Positions 53,334 through 64,000 of a stretch of 64,000 nucleotides of DNA are shown here, one piece after another (the first letter of the stretch is position 1; each line of letters begins with the position of its first letter). This stretch comes from a virus, in the IMG/VR virus record IMGVR_UViG_3300032307_000117, positions 1 through 64,000 of that record. The stretch is one strand, 5' to 3'. Below the pieces are notes generated by a model. That model made no database searches. It worked only from the letters and a program-made list of their open reading frames with translations, and had not been told where the DNA came from. The translations under genes were made by a program, and so were the position numbers.

Positions 53334-53783
53334 TTATGCCTTTAATCCTATGCGAGCAAAACGCACAGTGATTGGCCTAACTGCAGGATTGGGGGTAACG
53401 ACAAGATTAATATCGCCAGCCTCAGTCCTTGAGACGCTAATGGTTCCAACATCCCCATCATTGTCTAAAACTCCATATTCTGAGACGTTAACATTTGTAC
53501 CGTCGCTTAGTATGGATAATTCTGTAGCAAAAAATTTGTTATCATCATTTGAGGTTTTTGATATAGAAACTAGATACTTAACCATTCTCCAGTCAGATGC
53601 CCTGAATGAATCAACTACCGTTTCGTTTTCTATGCCAAAAATCTCATTTTCGTTATTACCATTAGTGCCTAGATCAGTTGCCTGAGCTGCAAGGGTATCA
53701 ATTAGATTCTTGTAATCATCAGACGTCGGCCTATCGCCTCTCTCAAAACGTGTTTTGAGCGTGGTAATATCAATTTTAGCCAT
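53334..53783 (-). CDS. Short fibre-end protein, paralogous to the fibre C-terminus
   Basis: The 149-residue protein aligns with the C-terminal domain of the 51716 fibre through (S/D)xxRxxxxxVKxxxS, LxxLSDGTNVxVSEYGVxxxDG and a closing beta strand. It has a short helical N-terminus (RPTSDDYKNLIDTL). A TATAAT box ends 6 bases before the ATG, and no ribosome-binding site is seen, so it is a leaderless candidate. It may be a partner subunit or a spare fibre tip. Confidence 0.7.
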   Translation of the reverse strand: MAKIDITTLKTRFERGDRPTSDDYKNLIDTLAAQATDLGTNGNNENEIFGIENETVVDSFRASDWRMVKYLVSISKTSNDDNKFFATELSILSDGTNVNVSEYGVLDNDGDVGTISVSRTEAGDINLVVTPNPAVRPITVRFARIGLKA

Positions 53784-53789
53784 AACGAT

Positions 53790-53795
53790 ATTATA
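53790..53795 (-). promoter_or_regulatory. -10 box of the leaderless 53783 gene
   Basis: TATAAT in GATATAATATCGTT ends 6 bases before the ATG. No -35 hexamer close to consensus is visible. Confidence 0.55.
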
Positions 53796-53808
53796 TCATT
53801 ATTTTATT

Positions 53809-54156
53809 TTATATAGACTGCTGATCCCAAGATATGGTTTCTTCGTTCCATAAATACATACCGCCGTCATTTGGATACGGTGTTGGGGATTCCCACAAAG
53901 CGGTTTCTTCATTTAGTGTCCACGACTCAAAAGGTTTTGGCGATATAAAAGCATCTAAAGCTTCATCATAGGTGTAGCCAACCCCAGCATAGTTTTTACG
54001 ATAGTTACCGTTGTACGAAGTTCTTTTACAGGTCTGCCCCCGAAATTCTCCATACCATACTTCAGGGTGCTTACCCTCAATTAGCTCTGTTTCATCAATT
54101 CCGACGATAACCTCTGTTACGATATTGTCGTTGTCTAGAAATGCATAGTGTGCCAT
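53809..54156 (-). CDS. Short tail-fibre-cassette protein, AxLDxDN family
   Basis: The 115-residue protein starts MAHYAFLDNDNIVTEVIVG and ends with IxPKPFESWTL and GGMYLWNEE. It is a clear paralogue of the 55666 gene, with the same CxxTSYNGNxRKNxAxxGY core. Such proteins occur in many marine and freshwater phages near fibre genes. The function is not known. A tail-fibre accessory role is inferred. AAGGAG precedes the ATG. Confidence 0.65.
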   Translation of the reverse strand: MAHYAFLDNDNIVTEVIVGIDETELIEGKHPEVWYGEFRGQTCKRTSYNGNYRKNYAGVGYTYDEALDAFISPKPFESWTLNEETALWESPTPYPNDGGMYLWNEETISWDQQSI

Positions 54157-54166
54157 TTTTATCTCC

Positions 54167-55129
54167 TTATGTCCAACTAATATTTCCAGCTCCTGCTGTT
54201 ATTATTGTAGTTACAAGCCCTCCACTTGCCGCAGATGATGATCCAGTTAGTCCTGCCCCAATGGTCAGAGAATATGATTCTGGATATCGTAAAACAACAA
54301 CTCCTGAACCACCGTTTCCACCACCCTGTTCATATAGATATCCAGCCCCACCTCCACCAGTATTGGCTACTCCATTTGCATTTCCTAGTCCACGCCTTGC
54401 TGTTTGGTTAGGAACCTTTAGTCCAGAAGTTCCTCCACCACCAATACCACCAACTCCAGTAGTAAGTGGAGAAGTTGCAGATAGGTTTCCTCCACCGCCA
54501 CCTCCAGCATAATAACTGTTAGTAAACCCCAAAAGTCCTGCACCACCAACACCAGAAGTATTTATAATGTTTGGTTGTGTTCCAGCAGACCCAGCTCCTC
54601 CACCACCACCGTTTGCATAGTCATAAACGTAAAAATTACCGCTTCCACTAGAGTGCCCTCCTACAAACCCCTGATTAGCAGTTCCAGTACCAGCCCTGTT
54701 TGCACTATCTGAAGCTCCACCACCAGATCCACCATCATTTACTGAGCCTGCTGTTTGTCCTTGTGCTACACCTCTTCCACCACCTAAAGAAGTAATAGAG
54801 CCAAAAACTGAATCTATACCTTTAGTGCCTTGATCAGCTCCAGACTGATTTCCAATAGCTCCACCAGCACCAATTGTTACTGAATAATTTACATTAGTTT
54901 GAGCAATTAGAGCACCTTCTGGATTAGATCCACCACCTGAGGTAAAACCAATGGCATTTGTCCTGTAGCCACCGCCACCACCACCGCCTGAGTGATATCC
55001 ACCACCGCCACCACCACCCGCAACAACAATATATTCAACTGTTAGTAATGGTGGTGGTAACTGAGCTTTTGCATTACGAAAAACATAAAAATTATTTATT
55101 CCAGAATATCTTAGGCTTCTTGCTGACAT
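54167..55129 (-). CDS. Glycine-rich adhesin
   Basis: The 320-residue protein starts with a short beta segment, then VEYIVVAGGGGGGG and long Gly-rich stretches with scattered Tyr, Asn and Ser. It ends with VLRYPESYSLTIGAGLTGS, a pattern seen in polyglycine-II adhesins at fibre tips. It pairs with the 56084 gene. Variable loops between Gly runs would carry receptor contacts. A GAGG/AGGA site precedes the ATG. Confidence 0.75.
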   Translation of the reverse strand: MSARSLRYSGINNFYVFRNAKAQLPPPLLTVEYIVVAGGGGGGGYHSGGGGGGGYRTNAIGFTSGGGSNPEGALIAQTNVNYSVTIGAGGAIGNQSGADQGTKGIDSVFGSITSLGGGRGVAQGQTAGSVNDGGSGGGASDSANRAGTGTANQGFVGGHSSGSGNFYVYDYANGGGGGAGSAGTQPNIINTSGVGGAGLLGFTNSYYAGGGGGGNLSATSPLTTGVGGIGGGGTSGLKVPNQTARRGLGNANGVANTGGGGAGYLYEQGGGNGGSGVVVLRYPESYSLTIGAGLTGSSSAASGGLVTTIITAGAGNISWT

Positions 55130-55137
55130 ATATTGTC

Positions 55138-55470
55138 CTAAGCTGTTATCTCGGAGCCAAACACACTAAATGTTAAAAGATCACTTGATGCTCTAACAGT
55201 AATGACATCTGCTGCATCAAGGGTAATTCCAAGAGTAAGGGTTGTTGAGTCAGACGCTGATACTGGGACATCGTAGGCAATGTAATGCTGATTTGCTAAA
55301 GTAGCCCCATTTGGTCTAATTGCAATTCTATATGTTGCGTCCTGAGTATGTCTGTTTGCAATTATAATTGAAGAAATAATTGCTTGAGTGTTTGCTGGTA
55401 CAGTGTATAAATTTACGTCTACTTCAGCATCTTGGGCAGACTGCCCTAAAACTTTATAAGTTGTCGCCAT
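55138..55470 (-). CDS. Small beta-sandwich tail protein, cassette member
   Basis: The 110-residue protein has the pattern YKVLGQSAQDAEVDVNLYTVPANTQAIISSIIIANR, then strands ending DVITVRASSDLLTFSVFGSEI. It aligns with the 57097 and 58743 products. Such ~100-residue beta proteins are common partners of phage fibres. GGGAG lies just upstream. Role unknown. Confidence 0.65.
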   Translation of the reverse strand: MATTYKVLGQSAQDAEVDVNLYTVPANTQAIISSIIIANRHTQDATYRIAIRPNGATLANQHYIAYDVPVSASDSTTLTLGITLDAADVITVRASSDLLTFSVFGSEITA

Positions 55471-55471
55471 T

Positions 55472-55642
55472 TTAGGCTCCCATCAATAAAAATATGTTTG
55501 GATCTACGCCACTTTGTGCAGATGACTGACCTACAGATACCGCCTTCCAAACGCCAACGGTATCGTTCCAAACCCAAGTTTTACCAGATGCAGAGAACTC
55601 TTGTCCATCTGTAGGAGTGTCTGGAAAGTCAATAGCGGGCAT
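55472..55642 (-). CDS. 56-residue DFP-domain mini-protein
   Basis: A complete frame fills this gap: ATG 55642, TAA at 55474-55472. The sequence follows the module DFPxxPTDGQEFxxxGxxWVWNxxxxVW shared with the 57463, 57844 and 59076 genes. After this module it has only about 25 residues, so it is the shortest member. TATAAT ends 6 bases before the ATG, and no ribosome-binding site is seen. Confidence 0.7.
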   Translation of the reverse strand: MPAIDFPDTPTDGQEFSASGKTWVWNDTVGVWKAVSVGQSSAQSGVDPNIFLLMGA

Positions 55643-55648
55643 ACGCTA

Positions 55649-55654
55649 ATTATA
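55649..55654 (-). promoter_or_regulatory. -10 box of the leaderless 55642 gene
   Basis: TATAAT in GTATAATTAGCGT ends 6 bases before the start codon. The -35 hexamer is not recognisable. Confidence 0.55.
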
Positions 55655-55665
55655 CCATAATAGTT

Positions 55666-56019
55666 TTAAGACTCTGACGACACTTCTACAGGAATCCAAG
55701 AAAGTTCGTCTTCGTTCCATAGATACATACCGTCATCATTTGGATAAGGTGTTGGTGGCTCCCACAATGCACTACTTTCATCAAGTATCCATGACTCGAA
55801 TGGTTTTGGAGGTATAAAAGCATCCAATTCTTCGTTATACGAATATCCAATTGCTGCGAAGTTTTTTCTAATATTGCCATTGTAGCTGGTTTTTATCCAG
55901 GTTCCCCCAAGATTATCGATTAGCCATTGATACCCTTCGTCACCGTTAGGATCTTCATTATCTCCAACAAGCACACGAAGAACAATGTTGTCTTTATCTA
56001 GTTCTGCCCAGTGTGACAT
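55666..56019 (-). CDS. Short tail-fibre-cassette protein, HWAELD paralogue
   Basis: The 117-residue protein starts MSHWAELDKDNIVLRVLVG and ends with IPPKPFESWIL and GMYLWNEDELSW. It is a close paralogue of the 53809 gene, including the Gly-Asn-x-Arg-Lys-Asn core. AAGGAG is the ribosome-binding site. A TATAAT about 30 bases upstream could give a leadered transcript. Confidence 0.65.
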   Translation of the reverse strand: MSHWAELDKDNIVLRVLVGDNEDPNGDEGYQWLIDNLGGTWIKTSYNGNIRKNFAAIGYSYNEELDAFIPPKPFESWILDESSALWEPPTPYPNDDGMYLWNEDELSWIPVEVSSES

Positions 56020-56083
56020 AATTTCTCCTTATAAAATTTATTTATATTATAGCATTGGGTGATGTAAAAGAATTCTGTAACTT

Positions 56084-57097
56084 TTAGTTAGATGCTGCTG
56101 TTCTAAGGTATCTAATAATTACAATTCCAGCCCCTCCAGCACCCGAAACTCCACGATAACTAGCATAGCCAGACTGTTCCGCACTTCCACCACCAGAGCC
56201 CGTGTTAATTCCACCATCTCCAGCTCTTGTGATAGCACCATTATTAAATACAATGCTACCATTTCCACCAGAATTCCTAGCAGATCCACCGCCGACTCCA
56301 GCCTGGGTGCCACCATTGTAATCTGCCCTGCTGCCGCCTCCACCGCCACCTATTCCACCATTTCCACCTCTTCCAGAGTTCCAGGAAGATCCGCCACCGC
56401 CAGCTGCATAAAAAAGTCCATCAACCCATTGTTTTCCAGGTCCACCGTCTCCACCATTTGTTGATCCTGTTTGACCAGCACCACCTGCACCTCCACCGCC
56501 ACCAGAAACAACGTTTGTATTCCAGCCACCGCCAGAAAAACCAAAAGCAGTTCCTTGTACTCCTGCTACCTGATTACTTGCTCCTGGAGATCCTCCATAT
56601 GGAGCTCCACCACCCGAACCACCAGCAAGTCCATTTTGAATAACTGGTCCACCATCGCCATAAACTCCACCGCCACCGCCACCGACGGCCACTTCTTGCA
56701 AAAATGAAGAATTTGTTCCATTATTTCCAAGAACTCCATTGCCCTCTACCGAGGCTCCTCCTGCACCGATAAGGACTGGATAAGATCCAGGTGTGATTGA
56801 TAGGCTTCCAGAAATAAATCCGCCAGCCCCGCCGCCTCCACCGTGACGTCCGCCTCCAGATCCGCCACCAGCAACTACTAAGAAATCAGCCTGAACGGGG
56901 CCATTAAATACTTCCAGGGTTCCATTACCTGTAAAGGTGCGATAGTGATAAACGGAATCAGAAGTTAAAATGCCACCAGTAACAGTAGGCAGTAGCCAAG
57001 CATTATCCCTTACTAATTGATAATGCTCAGGAAGTCCGAAAAATCCTTTGATGCTGCCATTAGCCGTAGGCCCTAGCCTGCCACCATTCTTTGGCAT
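56084..57097 (-). CDS. Glycine-rich adhesin, paralogue of 54167 gene
   Basis: The 337-residue protein has a short N-terminal beta segment, then ADFLVVAGGGSGGGRHGGGGGAGG and Gly-rich stretches to the C-terminus, which ends GGAGIVIIRYLRTAASN. The layout matches the 54167 protein, with a different variable interior. A likely polyglycine-II receptor-binding tip. GAGGAA precedes the ATG. The gene is preceded by cassette genes in the same order as its paralogue. Confidence 0.75.
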   Translation of the reverse strand: MPKNGGRLGPTANGSIKGFFGLPEHYQLVRDNAWLLPTVTGGILTSDSVYHYRTFTGNGTLEVFNGPVQADFLVVAGGGSGGGRHGGGGGAGGFISGSLSITPGSYPVLIGAGGASVEGNGVLGNNGTNSSFLQEVAVGGGGGGVYGDGGPVIQNGLAGGSGGGAPYGGSPGASNQVAGVQGTAFGFSGGGWNTNVVSGGGGGAGGAGQTGSTNGGDGGPGKQWVDGLFYAAGGGGSSWNSGRGGNGGIGGGGGGSRADYNGGTQAGVGGGSARNSGGNGSIVFNNGAITRAGDGGINTGSGGGSAEQSGYASYRGVSGAGGAGIVIIRYLRTAASN

Positions 57098-57459
57098 TAC
57101 GCAATTTCCTCATAAGAACAGATCGCTGTTAGGTCTCCTGCAGCACTGGCCTGTAGCCAAATACTGTCATTTTCTTCTAGGTAAATCGAAGTAGCTTTGT
57201 CAATAAGTGTTAGAGTCGAATCAGCTGGTACAGAGATAGTTGAAGCTATAAAAAAGTTTGCGCTGTTATTCTTTCTAACATATGCGGTAACGTCTGCAGC
57301 TGCTGAACCATCAACATTTGCAATTATTAATGAGTTAATCTTAAAAATCTTGTTGCTGTTTGAAGAGTTGGTTACAATTGCTGCAGCGGATGTACCTATA
57401 GCCTGTCCAGCAATTTTTCCTAGAATGCTTGTTACACTTACAATGTTTGGGTTTGCCAT
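57097..57459 (-). CDS. Small beta-sandwich tail protein
   Basis: The 120-residue protein has the cassette pattern KIFKINSLIIANVDGSAAADVTAYVRKNN, then TLTLIDKATSIYLEENDSIWLQASAAGDLTAICSYEEI. It aligns in length and strand order with the 55138 and 58743 proteins. GGAGGA is a strong ribosome-binding site. Virion location is inferred. Confidence 0.65.
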   Translation of the reverse strand: MANPNIVSVTSILGKIAGQAIGTSAAAIVTNSSNSNKIFKINSLIIANVDGSAAADVTAYVRKNNSANFFIASTISVPADSTLTLIDKATSIYLEENDSIWLQASAAGDLTAICSYEEIA

Positions 57460-57462
57460 TTG

Positions 57463-57804
57463 TTATCCTCCAAAAACTATTGACATTGCAATAGCCTTTC
57501 CTGTTGATGCCTTTGTTTCTAGCTGAGACTCTAGCTCTGAAATACCGTCGCTTATGCTATTAGTTACTAGCTCAACCCAAAAACTATCGTAATAAATATA
57601 TGTCGATCCGTCTACGGAGTTAAACCAAAGATCTCCCTCTTCGGCGTCTTCTGGCGCTGTTTCAGAAACAGTGATGCTACCAGATCCTCCACCAGAGGTT
57701 ACCCCCATTGACTCCCATCGAGATCCATCCCAAATCCACACCCTACCATTTTCAGTAGTAAAGGTGTCATTCAGGCTTGGCGAATTGGGAAAGTCTAAAG
57801 GCAT
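57463..57804 (-). CDS. DFP/WYN-domain tail protein
   Basis: The 113-residue protein has a DFP module (DFPNSPSLNDTFTTENGRVWIW) and a WYN/YYD module (SETAPEDAEEGDLWFNSVDG, YIYYDSFWVELV), both shared with neighbours. It ends with a helix (SELESQLETKASTGKAIAMSI). TAAAAT ends 6 bases before the ATG; no ribosome-binding site is seen. Confidence 0.65.
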   Translation of the reverse strand: MPLDFPNSPSLNDTFTTENGRVWIWDGSRWESMGVTSGGGSGSITVSETAPEDAEEGDLWFNSVDGSTYIYYDSFWVELVTNSISDGISELESQLETKASTGKAIAMSIVFGG

Positions 57805-57810
57805 AAGGCT

Positions 57811-57816
57811 ATTTTA
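57811..57816 (-). promoter_or_regulatory. -10 box of the leaderless 57804 gene
   Basis: TAAAAT in GATAAAATAGCCTT ends 6 bases before the ATG. Confidence 0.5.
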
Positions 57817-57843
57817 TCACACTATTAAGCTAGTTTTAATAAG

Positions 57844-58695
57844 CTATGATACTTTTAAGATAGTAGAAACTATGGCTCTTCCAGCCTCTGTATCTGGAGT
57901 AATAATTGCCATGCTACTTCCAGCTCTATAGACCCTTAAGTAATAGCCAGTCGATATATCTGTAACGTTAGCCATAAAAGAAAACATTGCTGGCCCTGGA
58001 TCATTTACAACGTTTCCAGTTCCAAAGCTTCTAGCAATTATCGTTCCTGCTGCCGTTGCAAGATTTACACCAGTCCAAACATCTCCACCAGATCCAAATC
58101 TCCATCCAACATTTATTAGATATACTCCAGGCTGAGAGAATGTTATTAGGCCGTTAGACGTATTCAGGGTTATATTGCTAGCTATAACTGATTCATTTAA
58201 AACAATATTTTGATGACCAGATCCGTAAGTTACTTCTTGAATTCTATTAAACTGGGCATAAGCTTTAGATAAATCAATTGTTGACCACTGGGTATCATAA
58301 TCATTAGTTGATGCCTTGGTTAAAATTTGACCAGTGGTTCCGCCAACTGCTATTCCTGGGCCTGCTGGACCAGTTTCTCCTGCGACACCATTTGCCCCAT
58401 TTTGTCCGTTTGCTCCTGTAGGTCCTGCTGGACCTCTTGCACCAGCAGGGCCAACTCTGACCTCTCCAACCTCAACCCAGGAATTGTCGTAATAAATAAA
58501 AAATTGGCCAGTATTTGAGTCAAACCAGCCCTGCCCCTCTTGGATATTTTCTGGTGGGGTAGTGGAAGCGATAAATTTTCCAGGGAATATGGTAGTTACT
58601 GCTGCATCCCAAGAGGTGCCATTCCAAGTCCAAGCATTTCCATTTACGGAAAACTGCTGCCCTACTGATGGCGTGTTTGGAAAATCAATAGGCAT
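57844..58695 (-). CDS. DFP/WYN/collagen-like fibre protein
   Basis: The 283-residue protein has a DFP module, a WYN/YYD module (PENIQEGQGWFDSNTGQFFIYYDNSWVEVG), a collagen-like Gly-x-y run (about 83-115) and a C1q/TNF-like C-terminal domain with VYLINVGWRFGSGGDVWTGVN. A trimeric short fibre is the likely role. TATAAT ends 7 bases before the ATG; no ribosome-binding site. Confidence 0.7.
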   Translation of the reverse strand: MPIDFPNTPSVGQQFSVNGNAWTWNGTSWDAAVTTIFPGKFIASTTPPENIQEGQGWFDSNTGQFFIYYDNSWVEVGEVRVGPAGARGPAGPTGANGQNGANGVAGETGPAGPGIAVGGTTGQILTKASTNDYDTQWSTIDLSKAYAQFNRIQEVTYGSGHQNIVLNESVIASNITLNTSNGLITFSQPGVYLINVGWRFGSGGDVWTGVNLATAAGTIIARSFGTGNVVNDPGPAMFSFMANVTDISTGYYLRVYRAGSSMAIITPDTEAGRAIVSTILKVS

Positions 58696-58702
58696 AATCT
58701 AT

Positions 58703-58708
58703 ATTATA
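58703..58708 (-). promoter_or_regulatory. -10 box of the leaderless 58695 gene
   Basis: TATAAT in GATATAATATAGATT ends 7 bases before the start codon. No clear -35 hexamer is visible. Confidence 0.5.
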
Positions 58709-58742
58709 TCTTATATTATTGAGATTAGGCTGAGTTTAACTA

Positions 58743-59048
58743 TTAAGCTATTTCAACGCCACTGATGTGGAATGTTAGGCCTGTTCCAGATGCCCCGCCA
58801 GTCACTGCGTCTCCAGCATCCAAGACCTGCTTAAGATCAATGTACGCTGTTGAATTTCCAGCCAAAGGTGCTGCGGTGTTAATGGCTATACCATCTAGCG
58901 AAAGAGTAAAGGTTCTTTCTGAAGATGTTGCATTTGATACAACAATGTTTGTTACGATAGCCTGTTTACCTGTAGGCACGGTATACAAAGCGGTGGTAGT
59001 TGTAGTAGTAGCGGCACCTCTAAATAGCACCTTGCTTGTTACTGGCAT
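58743..59048 (-). CDS. Small beta-sandwich tail protein
   Basis: The 101-residue protein has the cassette pattern TALYTVPTGKQAIVTNIVVSNATSSERTFTL, then AYIDLKQVLDAGDAVTGGASGTGLTFHISGVEI. It is a paralogue of the 55138 protein. GGAGGA is a strong ribosome-binding site. Confidence 0.65.
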   Translation of the reverse strand: MPVTSKVLFRGAATTTTTTALYTVPTGKQAIVTNIVVSNATSSERTFTLSLDGIAINTAAPLAGNSTAYIDLKQVLDAGDAVTGGASGTGLTFHISGVEIA

Positions 59049-59075
59049 AATTCCTCCATAAATAAGTTTATCATA

Positions 59076-59336
59076 TTAAATTGCGCCCATGATGGATAAA
59101 AGCTCTGAATCTTCTAGCCCAGCAACCTGGGACTTTTCGATTTCTATAAGGCTTTCGTTTATACCAATTATTGGACTATACTGAGTTCCAGTATTTGTAA
59201 TTGGTGAAGTTGTCTGTGTCCCATTTATTGCAAATGAAACAGTATTCCAAACAGAACCATCCCAGCTCCAACTGCGACCATCGGTTGCAACAAAGACCTG
59301 ATTTAATGTGGGGGAATTTGGAAAGTTAATGCGCAT
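59076..59336 (-). CDS. DFP-module tail protein
   Basis: The 86-residue protein carries the DFP module (INFPNSPTLNQVFVATDGRSWSW) and a short beta segment with a C-terminal helix. The TATAAT box ends 6 bases before the ATG and there is no ribosome-binding site. It belongs to a third, partial copy of the fibre cassette together with the 58743 gene. Confidence 0.65.
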   Translation of the reverse strand: MRINFPNSPTLNQVFVATDGRSWSWDGSVWNTVSFAINGTQTTSPITNTGTQYSPIIGINESLIEIEKSQVAGLEDSELLSIMGAI

Positions 59337-59342
59337 AGCTTA

Positions 59343-59348
59343 ATTATA
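59343..59348 (-). promoter_or_regulatory. -10 box of the leaderless 59336 gene
   Basis: TATAAT in GATATAATTAAGCT ends 6 bases before the ATG and lies just after the terminator hairpin at 59374-59417. Confidence 0.55.
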
Positions 59349-59373
59349 TCACTAATTAAAATAATCACTGTAG

Positions 59374-59417
59374 ATATAGCAATACCCCAGAATTTTTATC
59401 TTCTGGGGTAGCTATAT
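59374..59417 (-). terminator. Hairpin terminator after the 59423 gene
   Basis: Stem TACCCCAGAA with TTCTGGGGTA, extended by ATATAGC with GCTATAT across a 2-base bulge, has an 8-base loop. It lies directly after the stop at 59423 and before a leaderless start. The trailing T-tract is moderate, so partial read-through is expected. Confidence 0.75.
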
Positions 59418-59422
59418 TGTTT

Positions 59423-59764
59423 TTAGGATTCGTCTAGCAGAGTGTATGTTCCATCTGGTGCTGGCTCGTGGGGAACTGGCTCATCTGATGGTGGGACTAC
59501 AATAGACGGATCATAGTCAAATGGCTCTGGTCTAGGAATTACTGGCTCATCTGGGTTGTTGCCCTGAATAAATTCAGATGTTGAATCTAGCAATGCCGTA
59601 ATGTAGGCATCTGCCCAATTCTGAACTTCCTGTCTATTAGCCCAAGGCGTACCATCTGGCCAGTCTGGCTGGAATAGGAATGGGGCATTGCCTGGTAGCT
59701 CCAAGTCATTATCCCAAACCCTAAGGTGATTGTTTGCATCTATTTCATAGTAGTACTTGCTCAT
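59423..59764 (-). CDS. Small fibre-region protein with aromatic/Pro-rich composition
   Basis: I choose ATG 59764 (MSKYYYEIDANNHLRVW), which has AAGGA upstream and overlaps the glycosyltransferase stop as ATGA, over the frame open to 59782. The 113-residue protein has WPDGTPWANRQEVQNWADAYI and a Pro-rich C-terminus. It resembles phage fibre accessory proteins in style. Function is unknown. Confidence 0.6.
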   Translation of the reverse strand: MSKYYYEIDANNHLRVWDNDLELPGNAPFLFQPDWPDGTPWANRQEVQNWADAYITALLDSTSEFIQGNNPDEPVIPRPEPFDYDPSIVVPPSDEPVPHEPAPDGTYTLLDES

Positions 59765-60429
59765 GATCTTGGTCCTTCCCATGTTAGTTTCATGACTTTG
59801 TTGTGTTCTAGTTTGATACTTGGGTCGAACCAGATTTCAAATCCAGCTTCCCCCGCTCTGTGGCAGAATGATAGGTCTTCTCCAGTGATAGAAAAGTCAA
59901 GTTTTCCACCATCCCAGTCTACCTCAACTTTTGGAGACTGGAACCATGGCCTGCTAAGTGATTCGAATACTCCAGACTTTACTGCCATAAAACCCATTCC
60001 TGCACCCCAAACCTGTACTGGCTCTTTCATTTGTAGAACCTGATCGTAGGTGTATGGCTGCCCCATCTTTTCTTTGTGGGCAACAACTGTTCCATTTCCA
60101 AGAAGGTACGCTCCAGCAACAACGTCATACTCAGACTCATAGGCTTTGATAACGTCTTCTGGGGTAAACCTGATATCAGAATCTATCCATAAAATTTTGT
60201 CGTATGTAATTTGACCACTAAATGGTCTGCTGTCTTTTGGATTTGGAGTATTGCTACCATTTAAAGTTATTTCTCTGGCGTCAGCCACATGGCTAGAATA
60301 TTCTGAGGTATATAGCCAAGAAATCTGCCTTCTGTTTAGCTCATCAATTGTCAACAATAGGCTTTTTAGATATGGTGCCATAACTGAATGACCAGGGGTA
60401 GCTATAACTAAATTTACGTGATTTTCCAT
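59761..60429 (-). CDS. Glycosyltransferase, GT-A fold
   Basis: The 222-residue protein has NLVIATPGHSVMAPYLKSLL at the N-terminus, the metal-binding DxD in ILWIDSDIRFTPEDV, then GAYLL and a C-terminal ITGEDLSFCHRAGEAGF acidic motif. These fit GT-A glycosyltransferases. The gene sits among fibre genes, so it may glycosylate virion proteins or modify host glycans. GAGAGAAG gives the ribosome-binding site. Confidence 0.78.
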   Translation of the reverse strand: MENHVNLVIATPGHSVMAPYLKSLLLTIDELNRRQISWLYTSEYSSHVADAREITLNGSNTPNPKDSRPFSGQITYDKILWIDSDIRFTPEDVIKAYESEYDVVAGAYLLGNGTVVAHKEKMGQPYTYDQVLQMKEPVQVWGAGMGFMAVKSGVFESLSRPWFQSPKVEVDWDGGKLDFSITGEDLSFCHRAGEAGFEIWFDPSIKLEHNKVMKLTWEGPRS

Positions 60430-60457
60430 TTAACTTCTCTCTAGTATTTTGCTTATA

Positions 60458-61696
60458 TTATACTATAGCAGAAATTTCAGCTTTTTTCTCAAACAGGACT
60501 CTGGTCTCTGCAGTTGCTGCTCCACCAAAGGTGGTTGTATTCCACAAAACTGCCTGATGTACACCAGTGTTTGGCTGGAATCCCATACCGCCCATGAGAT
60601 AACGGTTGTTTCCAAAAATAATTCCATAGGCGTGATAGTCTGCACCACTAAATGTTGACGGATTTGTTCTAAGGGTCCATGTAAGTCCATCTACCGATGT
60701 TTGTACAGAATATCTTGCAGCAGCAATAAATATTCCACCCTGGAAAATTATTTCAAATATTGGCTGTTGGTTGCCAAATGGCGTAACTGCCCAAACCACA
60801 CCATCTGTAGAAGTTCTAAGCTGTCCATTTCCAGCAACCACAAATCTGCCATTACCAAATGCTGCAGCCTCTAGCCAGTTACCAACAGCATTAGCATTCC
60901 TTGTTGTCCAGGTAACGGTATCTGTAGAAGTTATAAGCTGGCCTTCTGCACCGCAGATAACATAAACGCCATTTCCGAACGCTGCGGATCTCATGCTTCT
61001 GCTTTGAAACGCTGATTGTGCAGAAGAGTTTACTTCGGACCAATTTACTCCATTTGTAGAAGTTCTTAGTGTCCCGCTGTCTCCACCTGCCAAGAAAATG
61101 TTATTTAAAAATCTTGCAAAGAAATAAGATGTTCCAGAAAAGGGTCTATCCCAATGCCAGGCATTTGTAGATGTCCACAACTCTCCTCCAGCAGATCCAC
61201 CAGCAACTGGAATAACATATCTTCCAGCACCGTAGGCTCCTGGGAAAAATGTACTATTTATCGTAGCATTTAATGGGTGGCCCCAGTCACCAGTTCCAGT
61301 TGTTGAAACCCTTAGTTGTGGGGCAAAGTTGTTGCCATCATACCTATAAACCCCCAATAAAAATAGCTCATTTCCAAATACTAAAGGTTTTGCAACGAAA
61401 TAGTTGTTAGACTCATATCCATATCCGCCAGTTAGGCCAGACCACGGAACAGCTCCAGATGCGCCCAATGGAGCAATCGTCATAGATGTTTGTGGGGTAG
61501 TTATGAAGTATGTGCCAGTAGTATTATTAACAAGAGTGTTTGTTCCTAAAGCAATGTTTCCAGATGAAGCTACTGTGACATTGTATACCCCAGGCTTAAT
61601 GTCAACTGGAACAGATCCAGAACGCTCAGTTATATACGCTCTGCTATAGCTAGATGGATCTCCACCAGCTGATAGCGGGAATTGTGAAATTGCCAC
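60458..61696 (-). CDS. Asp-box beta-propeller adhesin, paralogue of the next gene
   Basis: The 412-residue protein contains about six repeats of the S-(T/V)-x-(G/D/N)-x-x-W type, including TSTNAWHWDRP, TSTNGVNWSEV, TSTDTVTWTTRN, TSTDGVVWAV and TSVDGLTWTLRT, between YGNGRYVV-like strands. Asp-box repeats of this kind form sialidase-type propellers. The start is GTG at 61696, after GAGGTCAGG. The C-terminus is a FEKKAEISAIV tail, also found in its paralogue. Catalytic residues of sialidases are not evident, so binding is more likely than cleavage. Confidence 0.75.
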   Translation of the reverse strand: MAISQFPLSAGGDPSSYSRAYITERSGSVPVDIKPGVYNVTVASSGNIALGTNTLVNNTTGTYFITTPQTSMTIAPLGASGAVPWSGLTGGYGYESNNYFVAKPLVFGNELFLLGVYRYDGNNFAPQLRVSTTGTGDWGHPLNATINSTFFPGAYGAGRYVIPVAGGSAGGELWTSTNAWHWDRPFSGTSYFFARFLNNIFLAGGDSGTLRTSTNGVNWSEVNSSAQSAFQSRSMRSAAFGNGVYVICGAEGQLITSTDTVTWTTRNANAVGNWLEAAAFGNGRFVVAGNGQLRTSTDGVVWAVTPFGNQQPIFEIIFQGGIFIAAARYSVQTSVDGLTWTLRTNPSTFSGADYHAYGIIFGNNRYLMGGMGFQPNTGVHQAVLWNTTTFGGAATAETRVLFEKKAEISAIV

Positions 61697-61737
61697 TACC
61701 TGACCTCAATTCTTAGAATAATCATTTTTAAATATAA

Positions 61738-63123
61738 CTACTGAGTTAATGTAGTTATCTCACCCTTCTTTTCAAAGGAAACATACGTGCTACCGCCAGA
61801 GACTGCCTCACCCATGCTTGTTGTGGTTAGTCCAGTTGCGTATGACCAGTTATTTCCATCTCGTCTACCCTGGCCACTCATAATCCATCTTCCATTACCA
61901 AAGTCAATTTTGCTAACATATCCAGAAGGATAGGTTCCAGTCCACCAAGGTGGATTATTTCTTAATGTCCAAGTAATTCCACTTGGAGATGTTGCCACAA
62001 AGTAATCTCCAGCCATAACAAAAATACCATTAGCAAACTTAAGTGCGTAAATCGCATTTCCAGTTCCTGGATTTCTTAGTTCCCAGTTTACTCCGTCAGT
62101 AGACGACCTTAGTTGATTTCCTCCAGCAACCAAGAATAATCCATTGCCGTAGGTTGCAGCTGTTAGCCAGTTACCAACGGCATTAGAGTTTCTTGTGGTC
62201 CAAGTTGTTAAGTTAGTTGAAGTAACGAGCTGTCCTTCTTGGCCTGCAACAACATAAGTTCCATTTCCATAAGCCATGCTTCTGATTGATCTGCCAACAA
62301 ATCCAATATCAATTGGAGCTGTCCAGTTAGTTCCATTTGTTGCATACCTAAAGTGACCGCCATCACCACCAATAAAGTGATAGCCATTAAAAAATTCTGC
62401 CATGTATGGCTGACCAAGTCCACCAGAAGAGTTACTGTTAATTTGTTCGTCCCAGTGGAAAGCATTTGTTGAAGACCAGACCCTTGGAGTACCAACCTGA
62501 GTAACCACATATCTTCCATTGCCGTATCCGCCAACAAAGAATTCGTTATCTACGTTTCCAGTTAAAACCTGTGGCCAGCTAGAAACGTTTGTAGAGACAT
62601 AAAGTCTAGGAACTTCTCCAACACCAGACCTATGCCTGAAGGCCATTAGGTAAACATCGTTTCCATAGCCGCAGCTACTAAACCAGCCATTCCAGTTGTC
62701 ATTGATAAAAATAGCGCCCCAGTTTACGTTTCCAGTAGATCCAATAGGGAGAATGTTCATGCTTGTTTGTGGTGTGTCAAAGAAATACATTGTGTTAGCA
62801 TTTTGAGAGATCGTCTGTCCACCGACAATAAAATCTGCAGCTGCTTGAGCTCTTACGTGATATGCTCCAGCTGGCACGTTAATTGTGTAAGTTCCAAAAC
62901 CAGTAACCTTATATGTTGGGTTATACTCAGTCTGGTCTCCAATAATTCCCAGGGTATTTGGTTCAGCAACGGCATATTCCAAAGCATTCCAAGCGGTAAC
63001 ACCATCACCAATCTTAAACTGGTTAGTGTCATTCTCTATACCCACTTCGCCAATAGCTAAAGTTGGGTTTTCAGATGTCCAGTTTGCCGCTGTATCATTA
63101 CGAAGCTGGATTTGTACTGACAT
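61738..63123 (-). CDS. Tropism-domain plus Asp-box propeller adhesin
   Basis: The 461-residue protein has an N-terminal fibre domain (QIQLRNDTAANWTSENPTLAIGEVGIEND) like that of the 49930 and 50605 proteins, then a propeller of about six Asp-box repeats (SSTNAFHWDEQ, ATNGTNWTAP, TSTNLTTWTTRN, SSTDGVNWELRN, TSPSGITWTLRN). The propeller aligns with the 60458 protein almost blade by blade. It ends with FEKKGEITTLTQ. GGGAG precedes the ATG, which overlaps the upstream stop. Confidence 0.78.
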   Translation of the reverse strand: MSVQIQLRNDTAANWTSENPTLAIGEVGIENDTNQFKIGDGVTAWNALEYAVAEPNTLGIIGDQTEYNPTYKVTGFGTYTINVPAGAYHVRAQAAADFIVGGQTISQNANTMYFFDTPQTSMNILPIGSTGNVNWGAIFINDNWNGWFSSCGYGNDVYLMAFRHRSGVGEVPRLYVSTNVSSWPQVLTGNVDNEFFVGGYGNGRYVVTQVGTPRVWSSTNAFHWDEQINSNSSGGLGQPYMAEFFNGYHFIGGDGGHFRYATNGTNWTAPIDIGFVGRSIRSMAYGNGTYVVAGQEGQLVTSTNLTTWTTRNSNAVGNWLTAATYGNGLFLVAGGNQLRSSTDGVNWELRNPGTGNAIYALKFANGIFVMAGDYFVATSPSGITWTLRNNPPWWTGTYPSGYVSKIDFGNGRWIMSGQGRRDGNNWSYATGLTTTSMGEAVSGGSTYVSFEKKGEITTLTQ

Positions 63124-64000
63124 TAAAAACTCCCTGCGTTTCCACCACTAATAGACATTATACCATTATAAATAGCACTAGCAGAGCCTCCGTCTATGTT
63201 TCCAAAATATCCGATATTGCCCTCTGGTCCTTGTGGACCCGCTGGACCCTGTGGTCCTGCTGGACCCTGTGGTCCTGGAACAGTACTAGCCGCTCCTGCT
63301 GGACCTGTTGGCCCCGCTGGTCCTTGTGGTCCTGCAGGTCCTTGTGGTCCTGGAACAGTACTGGCTGCACCAGTTGCTCCTGTCGGACCTGCTGGCCCCT
63401 GAGGACCTGGCTGATTAGAGGTTACCTCAATCCAATAGTTGTCATAAAAAATGTAAAACCTTGAGCTTGCTGCATCATACCAAAGTTTTCCTTCTTCGGG
63501 ATTCTGTGGCATATTTTCAGATACCAGGAATTTTCCATCTGGTCCCTGAGGTCCTTCTACACCCTGAGGACCTGGCTGACTAGGAAATGTCTCAACCCAG
63601 TAGTTATCATAAAACATGTAGAATCTAGAAGTTTCTGCATTGTACCAGGCGTCTCCCTCTTCTGGCGATTCTGGAGCAGTCTCAGAAACTAGGAACTTTC
63701 CTAAAGGACCTTGTGGGCCTTGTGGTCCTTCTGGACCAACCTGAGATGGATTTGAGTCTACCCAGAAACCATCGTAGTACAAGTAAGTTGTTCCAACGCT
63801 TGAGTTATACCAAAGATCTCCAGTTGCAGGATTTAGTGGTGGGGTATCGCTGACCGTTACGCTTACGGTTTCGCCACCGCCTCCGCCTCCTCCAGTCATT
63901 TCTCCTGGTATCCAGCTTGAGGTAGATTCGTTATAGATTAAGACATCGCCATTGCTTAGGCCAGAAAGATTTACGTTTGCAAGGGCATCTAAAGGAGATG
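63123..64000 (-). CDS. Collagen-like fibre with three WYN/YYD repeats, N-terminus beyond window
   Basis: The frame stays open past ATG 63899 to the window edge, giving at least 291 residues. The upstream segment, [23 protein letters not shown], is a common fibre repeat, so the true start is outside. Three repeats of GDLWYN to YYDGFWV type follow, then a collagen-like GPQGPAG run (about 60 residues) and a short C-terminal cap. No ribosome-binding site fits 63899. It is the most upstream fibre in this window. Confidence 0.8.

Follow-up and report, generated by a model that had tools for sequence, protein, structure and literature searches.

C-terminal tails of phage fibre proteins predict the next gene and may act as docking tags for its product

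The fibre genes considered here lie on the minus strand of a 64,000-nucleotide window (positions 1 to 64,000 of IMG/VR record IMGVR_UViG_3300032307_000117), which is part of a 75,891-base viral contig from an environmental phage, and are designated by their lower window coordinate. In these genes and their relatives the last residues of the fibre protein predict which gene follows, and we consider it probable, judging from sequence comparison, that these residues form a C-terminal tag that docks the partner protein encoded next door. The portal protein of the contig shares 46-48% identity with its counterparts in ~130 kb Streptomyces phages and 73-79% with those of the best 80 environmental contigs fetched. 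Relatives were sampled from IMG/VR contigs and cultured phages, with open reading frames (ORFs) in the loci called mechanically and redundancy among loci removed solely by identity of the last 40 residues. A megablast search with the locus found no match among cultured phages, and scanning viral contigs with the whole of 57844 and the whole of 61738 gave no loci.

The C-terminal tail predicts the next gene

The short proteins that begin with the DFP module differ in their middles and have similar ends (NIFLLMGA, SFLLMGA, LLSIMGAI and GKAIAMSIVFGG). In the window, 59076 carries the type B tail DSELLSIMGAI (59079-59111) and is followed by a 101-amino acid beta-sandwich protein of type B (58743-59048), whilst 55472 carries the type A tail NIFLLMGA (55475-55498) and is followed by a 110-amino acid partner of type A (55138-55470). 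Both partners belong to phrog_1276 (P1276), a family without an assigned function whose profile matches 24/24 aligned members of the beta-sandwich group. In all loci together, a strict LMGA-type motif ended 118/169 genes preceding a phrog_1276 partner as against 66/2393 others, and the gene upstream of most P1276 genes had such a tail regardless of its own architecture. The motif was fixed on the first set of loci and then tested on P1276 loci fetched later, where it stood upstream of 95 of the 136 partner genes, many of the misses being near variants (LMTMGA, IMQAY) or badly called ORFs.

Other tails have partners of their own. The tail GKAIAMSIVFGG of 57463 (57466-57501), of the form GKxIAMSIVFGG, precedes a 120-amino acid P1276b protein (57097-57459) and recurs before the same next gene in loci L019 and L014 (3/3); a WxEAQA tail is paired with a diverged P1276 domain (3/3); and the DGG-type tail of 63123 (63126-63203) precedes the Mtd_N protein 61738 (61738-63123), the stop and start codons overlapping as TAATG. 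DGG was found within the last 32 residues of 23/32 genes before Mtd_N and of 31/2530 others. Amongst cultured phages, gp20 of Pontimonas phage phiPsal1 ends LMLMGG with a P1276 gene next, and in the Streptomyces phages Saftant, phiScoe1, Caelum and Diane the baseplate hub (annotated as such in phiScoe1, and matching Pfam Sipho_Gp37 in Saftant) ends IMGVW and is followed by a type B-like P1276. In Kyanoviridae the tails are aromatic and looser. No description of a tail/next-gene rule was found in the open-access literature searched.

Fusion of tail and partner by read-through or frameshift was rejected, the gaps between the two genes occupying all three frames and the partners having their own starts. 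Separately, P1276 also forms the N-terminal domain of longer fibres (L173 21259-23327 of phage DSL-LC01, L016 and L041), which are preceded by (R/K)LxWxEAQA ends. Five further loci (L199, L205, L307, L266 and L279) encode 42-51-amino acid proteins that start MSKARDLA or MTKARDLA and end LMTMGA. Their genes follow that of a long fibre whose tail is of type B and immediately precede a type A partner gene, in the manner of a tag converter.

Tail and partner subtypes match and are inherited together

P1276 partners fall into type A (~109 amino acids) and type B (~100 amino acids, without an 8-residue insert). Type A partners follow tails ending in MGA, GG or LGGM, and type B partners follow MGA plus one residue. 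Subtypes of tail and partner agreed in 128/128 classifiable pairs (79 A, 49 B), a count that stands after reclassification of six apparently mismatched partners, four that length alone had mistyped (type B, carrying a short insert) and two that the motif alone had mistyped (type A with YSVLGQ). The bodies upstream of the partners fell into 48 N-terminal clusters. A single change of tail subtype is seen on the P1276 tree (shuffled mean 39), whereas 11 N-terminal clusters change 43 times, below the shuffled mean of 69 and far more often than the minimum of 10. The second-largest body family shows five switches, every one of them affecting tail and partner jointly (29/29 rows, 4/4 supported independent pairs), and in the Mtd_N set tail and partner each change three times.

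Where the body is exchanged was mapped in close P1276 pairs with different bodies, in which mean DNA identity was 0.81 in the partner, 0.62 in the tail, and 0.46 and then 0.37 upstream, against a background of 0.31. The boundary mapped in this way lies just upstream of the tail and not at the WYN or collagen segments of the fibre genes.

The type A partner 55138 was modelled with AlphaFold2 as an eight-stranded beta-sandwich (predicted local distance difference test, pLDDT, 92.9). Against a library of viral structures this model matched mostly uncharacterised phage proteins, along with some that are tail-fibre-like, and comparison of P1276 with PDB folds gave weak, generic matches to viral jelly rolls, to a phage cement trimer and to a fibre domain; a sequence search for solved structures of P1276, DFP or WYN found none. 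A Gly-rich gene came after P1276 in 94/171 cases, as against 153/2417 for other genes. In the window the proteins 56084 (56084-57097; E 2.7e-14), a candidate receptor-binding tip, and 54167 (54167-55129; E 1.5e-15), which follows the type A partner, are Gly_rich_2 (PF21722) members above the curated cut-offs.

Is the tail a docking tag, a DNA signal or a linked passenger?

Several observations weigh against a docking role. In an AlphaFold read-through model of 59076-58743 the tail formed a short helix (pLDDT about 70) with no docked strand, an outcome that neither supports nor excludes docking. A recognisable upstream tail was lacking for 25/153 partners, in some cases owing to an intervening ORF, and LMGA-like ends occur on some structural genes that are not followed by P1276. 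The partner tree shows types A and B splitting just once, and the sampled contigs and phages are related, so that p-values are not independent and raw values overstate independence. Finally, 52/63 type A cases have a ribosome site that extends over tail codons, and the bias towards GGA codons is therefore partly translational.

This overlap, together with the predominance of GGA at type A glycines and the frequent TAATG overlap at the end of DGG tails, would fit an account in which the C-terminus is conserved as a side effect of signals in the DNA, namely a Shine-Dalgarno site and the coupled start of the next gene. In type B, however, the site is intergenic in 26/34 cases and yet MGA is invariant, its glycine codons being mixed (GGC/GGT/GGA), which indicates that the tail peptide itself is under selection. 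The hydrophobic residues before MGA, which lie outside any ribosome site, are encoded by many different codons; codon choice also varies at the conserved L, G and A residues, and at Leu in type A. A ribosome-site artefact as the origin of tail conservation fails for type B, for which the account is largely refuted, and we consider it barely credible overall.

The main rival is linkage alone, whereby the tail would serve another assembly step shared by these proteins, as a trimerisation cap or chaperone signal, and would be carried along with the next gene by exchanges that occur just upstream of the tail, with no contact between tail and partner. The identity gradient fits such co-transfer, and the LMGA-like ends without a following P1276 and the undocked fusion model point the same way. 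On the other hand, the 128/128 subtype match and the existence of several other kinds of tail, each paired with a partner family of its own, exceed what linkage alone predicts, and the same end is found on an unrelated baseplate hub in the Streptomyces phages. We regard linkage alone as unlikely and retain the docking tag as our preferred explanation.

Fibre genes are mosaics of old modules

The first-pass annotation described the fibre genes as mosaics of three small modules, and the placements it gave for DFP, WYN and collagen were borne out, with module matches between window genes above chance (mostly blastp E 1e-5 to 1e-19). DFP is the N-terminal module of four genes, 55472 (56 amino acids; module at 55538-55642), 57463 (57700-57804), 57844 (58591-58695) and 59076 (59076-59336, 86 amino acids; 59232-59336), reading NFP in the last. 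WYN is present once in 57463 (57571-57678), once in 57844 (58471-58578) and three times in 63123 (copies a, b and c at 63756-63863, 63591-63698 and 63426-63533). Gly-x-y collagen runs occur in 57844 (58357-58452; Collagen E 1.9e-4, below the Pfam cut-off) and 63123 (main run 63195-63407; E 5.2e-9).

That inventory was incomplete, since collagen runs are also present in 49930 and 50605 and further modules recur. A fourth, FKVKHGL, forms the N-terminus of 63123 and is shared with 51716; Mtd_N (PF18454) is present in 61738 (48.2 bits over residues 5-43 at the N-terminus, above the cut-off of 26.3), 49930 and 50605; Gly_rich_2 is common to 56084 and 54167; and the beta-sandwich of ~100-110 amino acids is common to 58743 and 55138. 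The window edge cuts 63123, of which 63123-64000 is included; its true extent is 63123-64094 from a GTG start, and it combines FKVKHGL, three WYN copies, collagen and the DGG tail. WYN resembles Pfam DUF7360 (PF24059), as seen in copy b of 63123, but is not assigned to it, the best score, that of the 63123 protein (26.5 bits, E 5.6e-6), being below the gathering cut-off of 27.6 and single modules scoring below 26.5 bits. The C-terminal head that follows the DFP, WYN and collagen segments of 57844 is possibly C1q/TNF-like, its match to BclA_C being weak (13.6 bits against a cut-off of 38, E 0.062).

It was further proposed that WYN differs little between genes and that the modules are shuffled frequently, possibly by recombination at repeated segments. 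The first of these did not hold: WYN pairs share only 36-69% of residues and 50-70% of bases, with four-fold third positions about half identical, and DFP pairs share 31-54% of residues. With synonymous sites randomised, the WYN copies bear no sign of recent recombination at the repeats. Their divergence indicates that the module copies in the window are old, and recent duplication or recombination within the window was ruled out on this basis. Gene order is parallel in 57463-57097-56084-55666 and 55472-55138-54167-53809, in which the phrog_7759 proteins (55666-56019 and 53809-54156) are 59% identical; we do not claim a single duplicated four-gene cassette, as the partner genes belong to different families.

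Shuffling stands over evolutionary time. Profiles built from the window detected the same modules in dozens of relatives, in combinations that include DFP, DFP-WYN, DFP-COL, MTDN-COL, MTDN-COL-WYN, FKVKHGL-WYN and WYN-WYN-COL, with DFP, Mtd_N and FKVKHGL at the extreme N-terminus and WYN and collagen internal, and the 43 N-terminal changes on the partner tree agree with this; recent exchange does not stand, the copies being too diverged. The wealth of combinations, and collagen DNA that is 83% identical over 59 nucleotides between 49930 and 63123, would suit recombination between repeated WYN or collagen DNA as the route, and old events at collagen DNA may have occurred. The divergence of the WYN DNA argues against this route, as does the nucleotide alignment that had been suggested as a check, in which identity was lost not at WYN or collagen but some tens of bases upstream of the tail, and we judge it very unlikely. 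A diversity-generating retroelement acting with Mtd was also rejected, RVT_1 being absent from the 75.9 kb contig, which may be a fragment.

Proteins 60458-61696 and 61738-63123 have homologous bodies (40% over ~400 amino acids) and differ at their N-termini; Mtd_N is on 61738 and missing from 60458, a clean case of adaptor swapping. Within the fibre locus, 59761-60429 is a phrog_1574 gene with weak glycosyltransferase similarity that is kept in relatives, and directly upstream of the fibre genes L002 4142-4450 (contig 64142-64450) encodes a 102-amino acid protein with about five ~10-residue LVKIxExKR repeats.

Leaderless-type promoters of DFP genes

Each of the four DFP genes is preceded by a TATAAT-like box 6-7 nucleotides from its ATG, which in three of them takes the form TGnTA.AAT. 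These leaderless-type promoters are TGATATAAT plus 6 nucleotides before 59076 (59337-59351), TATAAT plus 7 before 57844 (58696-58708), TGATAAAAT plus 6 before 57463 (57805-57819) and TGGTATAAT plus 6 before 55472 (55643-55657). In relatives such a box preceded 15/38 DFP genes compared with 73/2158 other genes. Each DFP gene may open its own transcript. The arrangement TGATATAAT-N6-ATG is also found at 53784-53798 (minus strand) before a 149-amino acid gene (53334-53783) that ends RIGLKA and lies upstream of an FKVKHGL gene, and is kept there in many relatives.

A model for fibre assembly and its meaning

In the docking-tag model the fibre genes are of a cassette type. Attachment of the protein to the virion is probably the role of the small N-terminal adaptor (DFP, Mtd_N or FKVKHGL), DFP being a putative virion anchor; the WYN and collagen runs would be spacers; and the last ~6-12 residues would dock the product of the next gene by binding it. 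For LMGA-type tags this partner would be the ~100-110-amino acid P1276 beta-sandwich, often followed by a Gly-rich adhesin-like protein, and it may carry or itself form the fibre tip. Tag and partner travel as a unit of matching subtype, A going with A and B with B, whilst everything upstream of the tag is exchanged, and because the joint between them would be kept, new adaptors and stalks could fit without breaking it. More tentatively, the tails may make up a general addressing code, in which the tag at the C-terminus of each protein would specify the N-terminal domain of the protein encoded next. The code would comprise several tag/socket pairs (DGG for Mtd_N; LMGA A, LMGA B, SIVFGG and WxEAQA for subfamilies of P1276), and gene order would be the order of assembly. 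If so, any part with the right tag could be dropped into the fibre operons of environmental phages.

The compatibility of fibre parts is a standing question for the evolution of phage host range, and environmental fibre genes are mostly unannotated. A short tail from which the next protein can be predicted, even when the bodies that carry it are unrelated and include a baseplate hub, offers a functional hypothesis for a phrog of unknown function and a way of reading fibre operons.

Comparison with known systems

In freshwater actinobacterial phages of 'Ca. Nanopelagicales', part of a tail fibre gene and two collagen-like genes vary between relatives (PMC10202952), a hypervariable island that resembles the present locus in its variable fibre and collagen genes; the parts of its description that were consulted contain no tail/partner rule. 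In SP6, K1E/K1-5 and KP32, peptides of as few as 7 or 11 residues join swappable receptor-binding proteins to an anchor (PMC6872550), and the likeness lies in a short attachment tag that enables swaps. There, however, the tag is the N-terminus of the distal protein, whereas here the conserved peptide is not N-terminal on a secondary protein but C-terminal on the preceding one, and matches the product of the next gene. In the T2/S16-type gp37-gp38 system the distal C-terminal end of the fibre bears a Gly-rich tip protein that has to match it, such that T2 gp37 rejects PP01 gp38 unless the gp38 N-terminus is swapped (PMC12892980), and gp24 of Pam3 has the Gly-rich domain type of known fibre tips (PMC9608196). 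The PF21722 proteins 56084 and 54167 have the Gly-rich domain of a gp38-like tip and occupy the same place here, but a separate beta-sandwich gene lies between the fibre and the Gly-rich protein, and it is a short linear tail, borne by many unrelated proteins, that provides the match.

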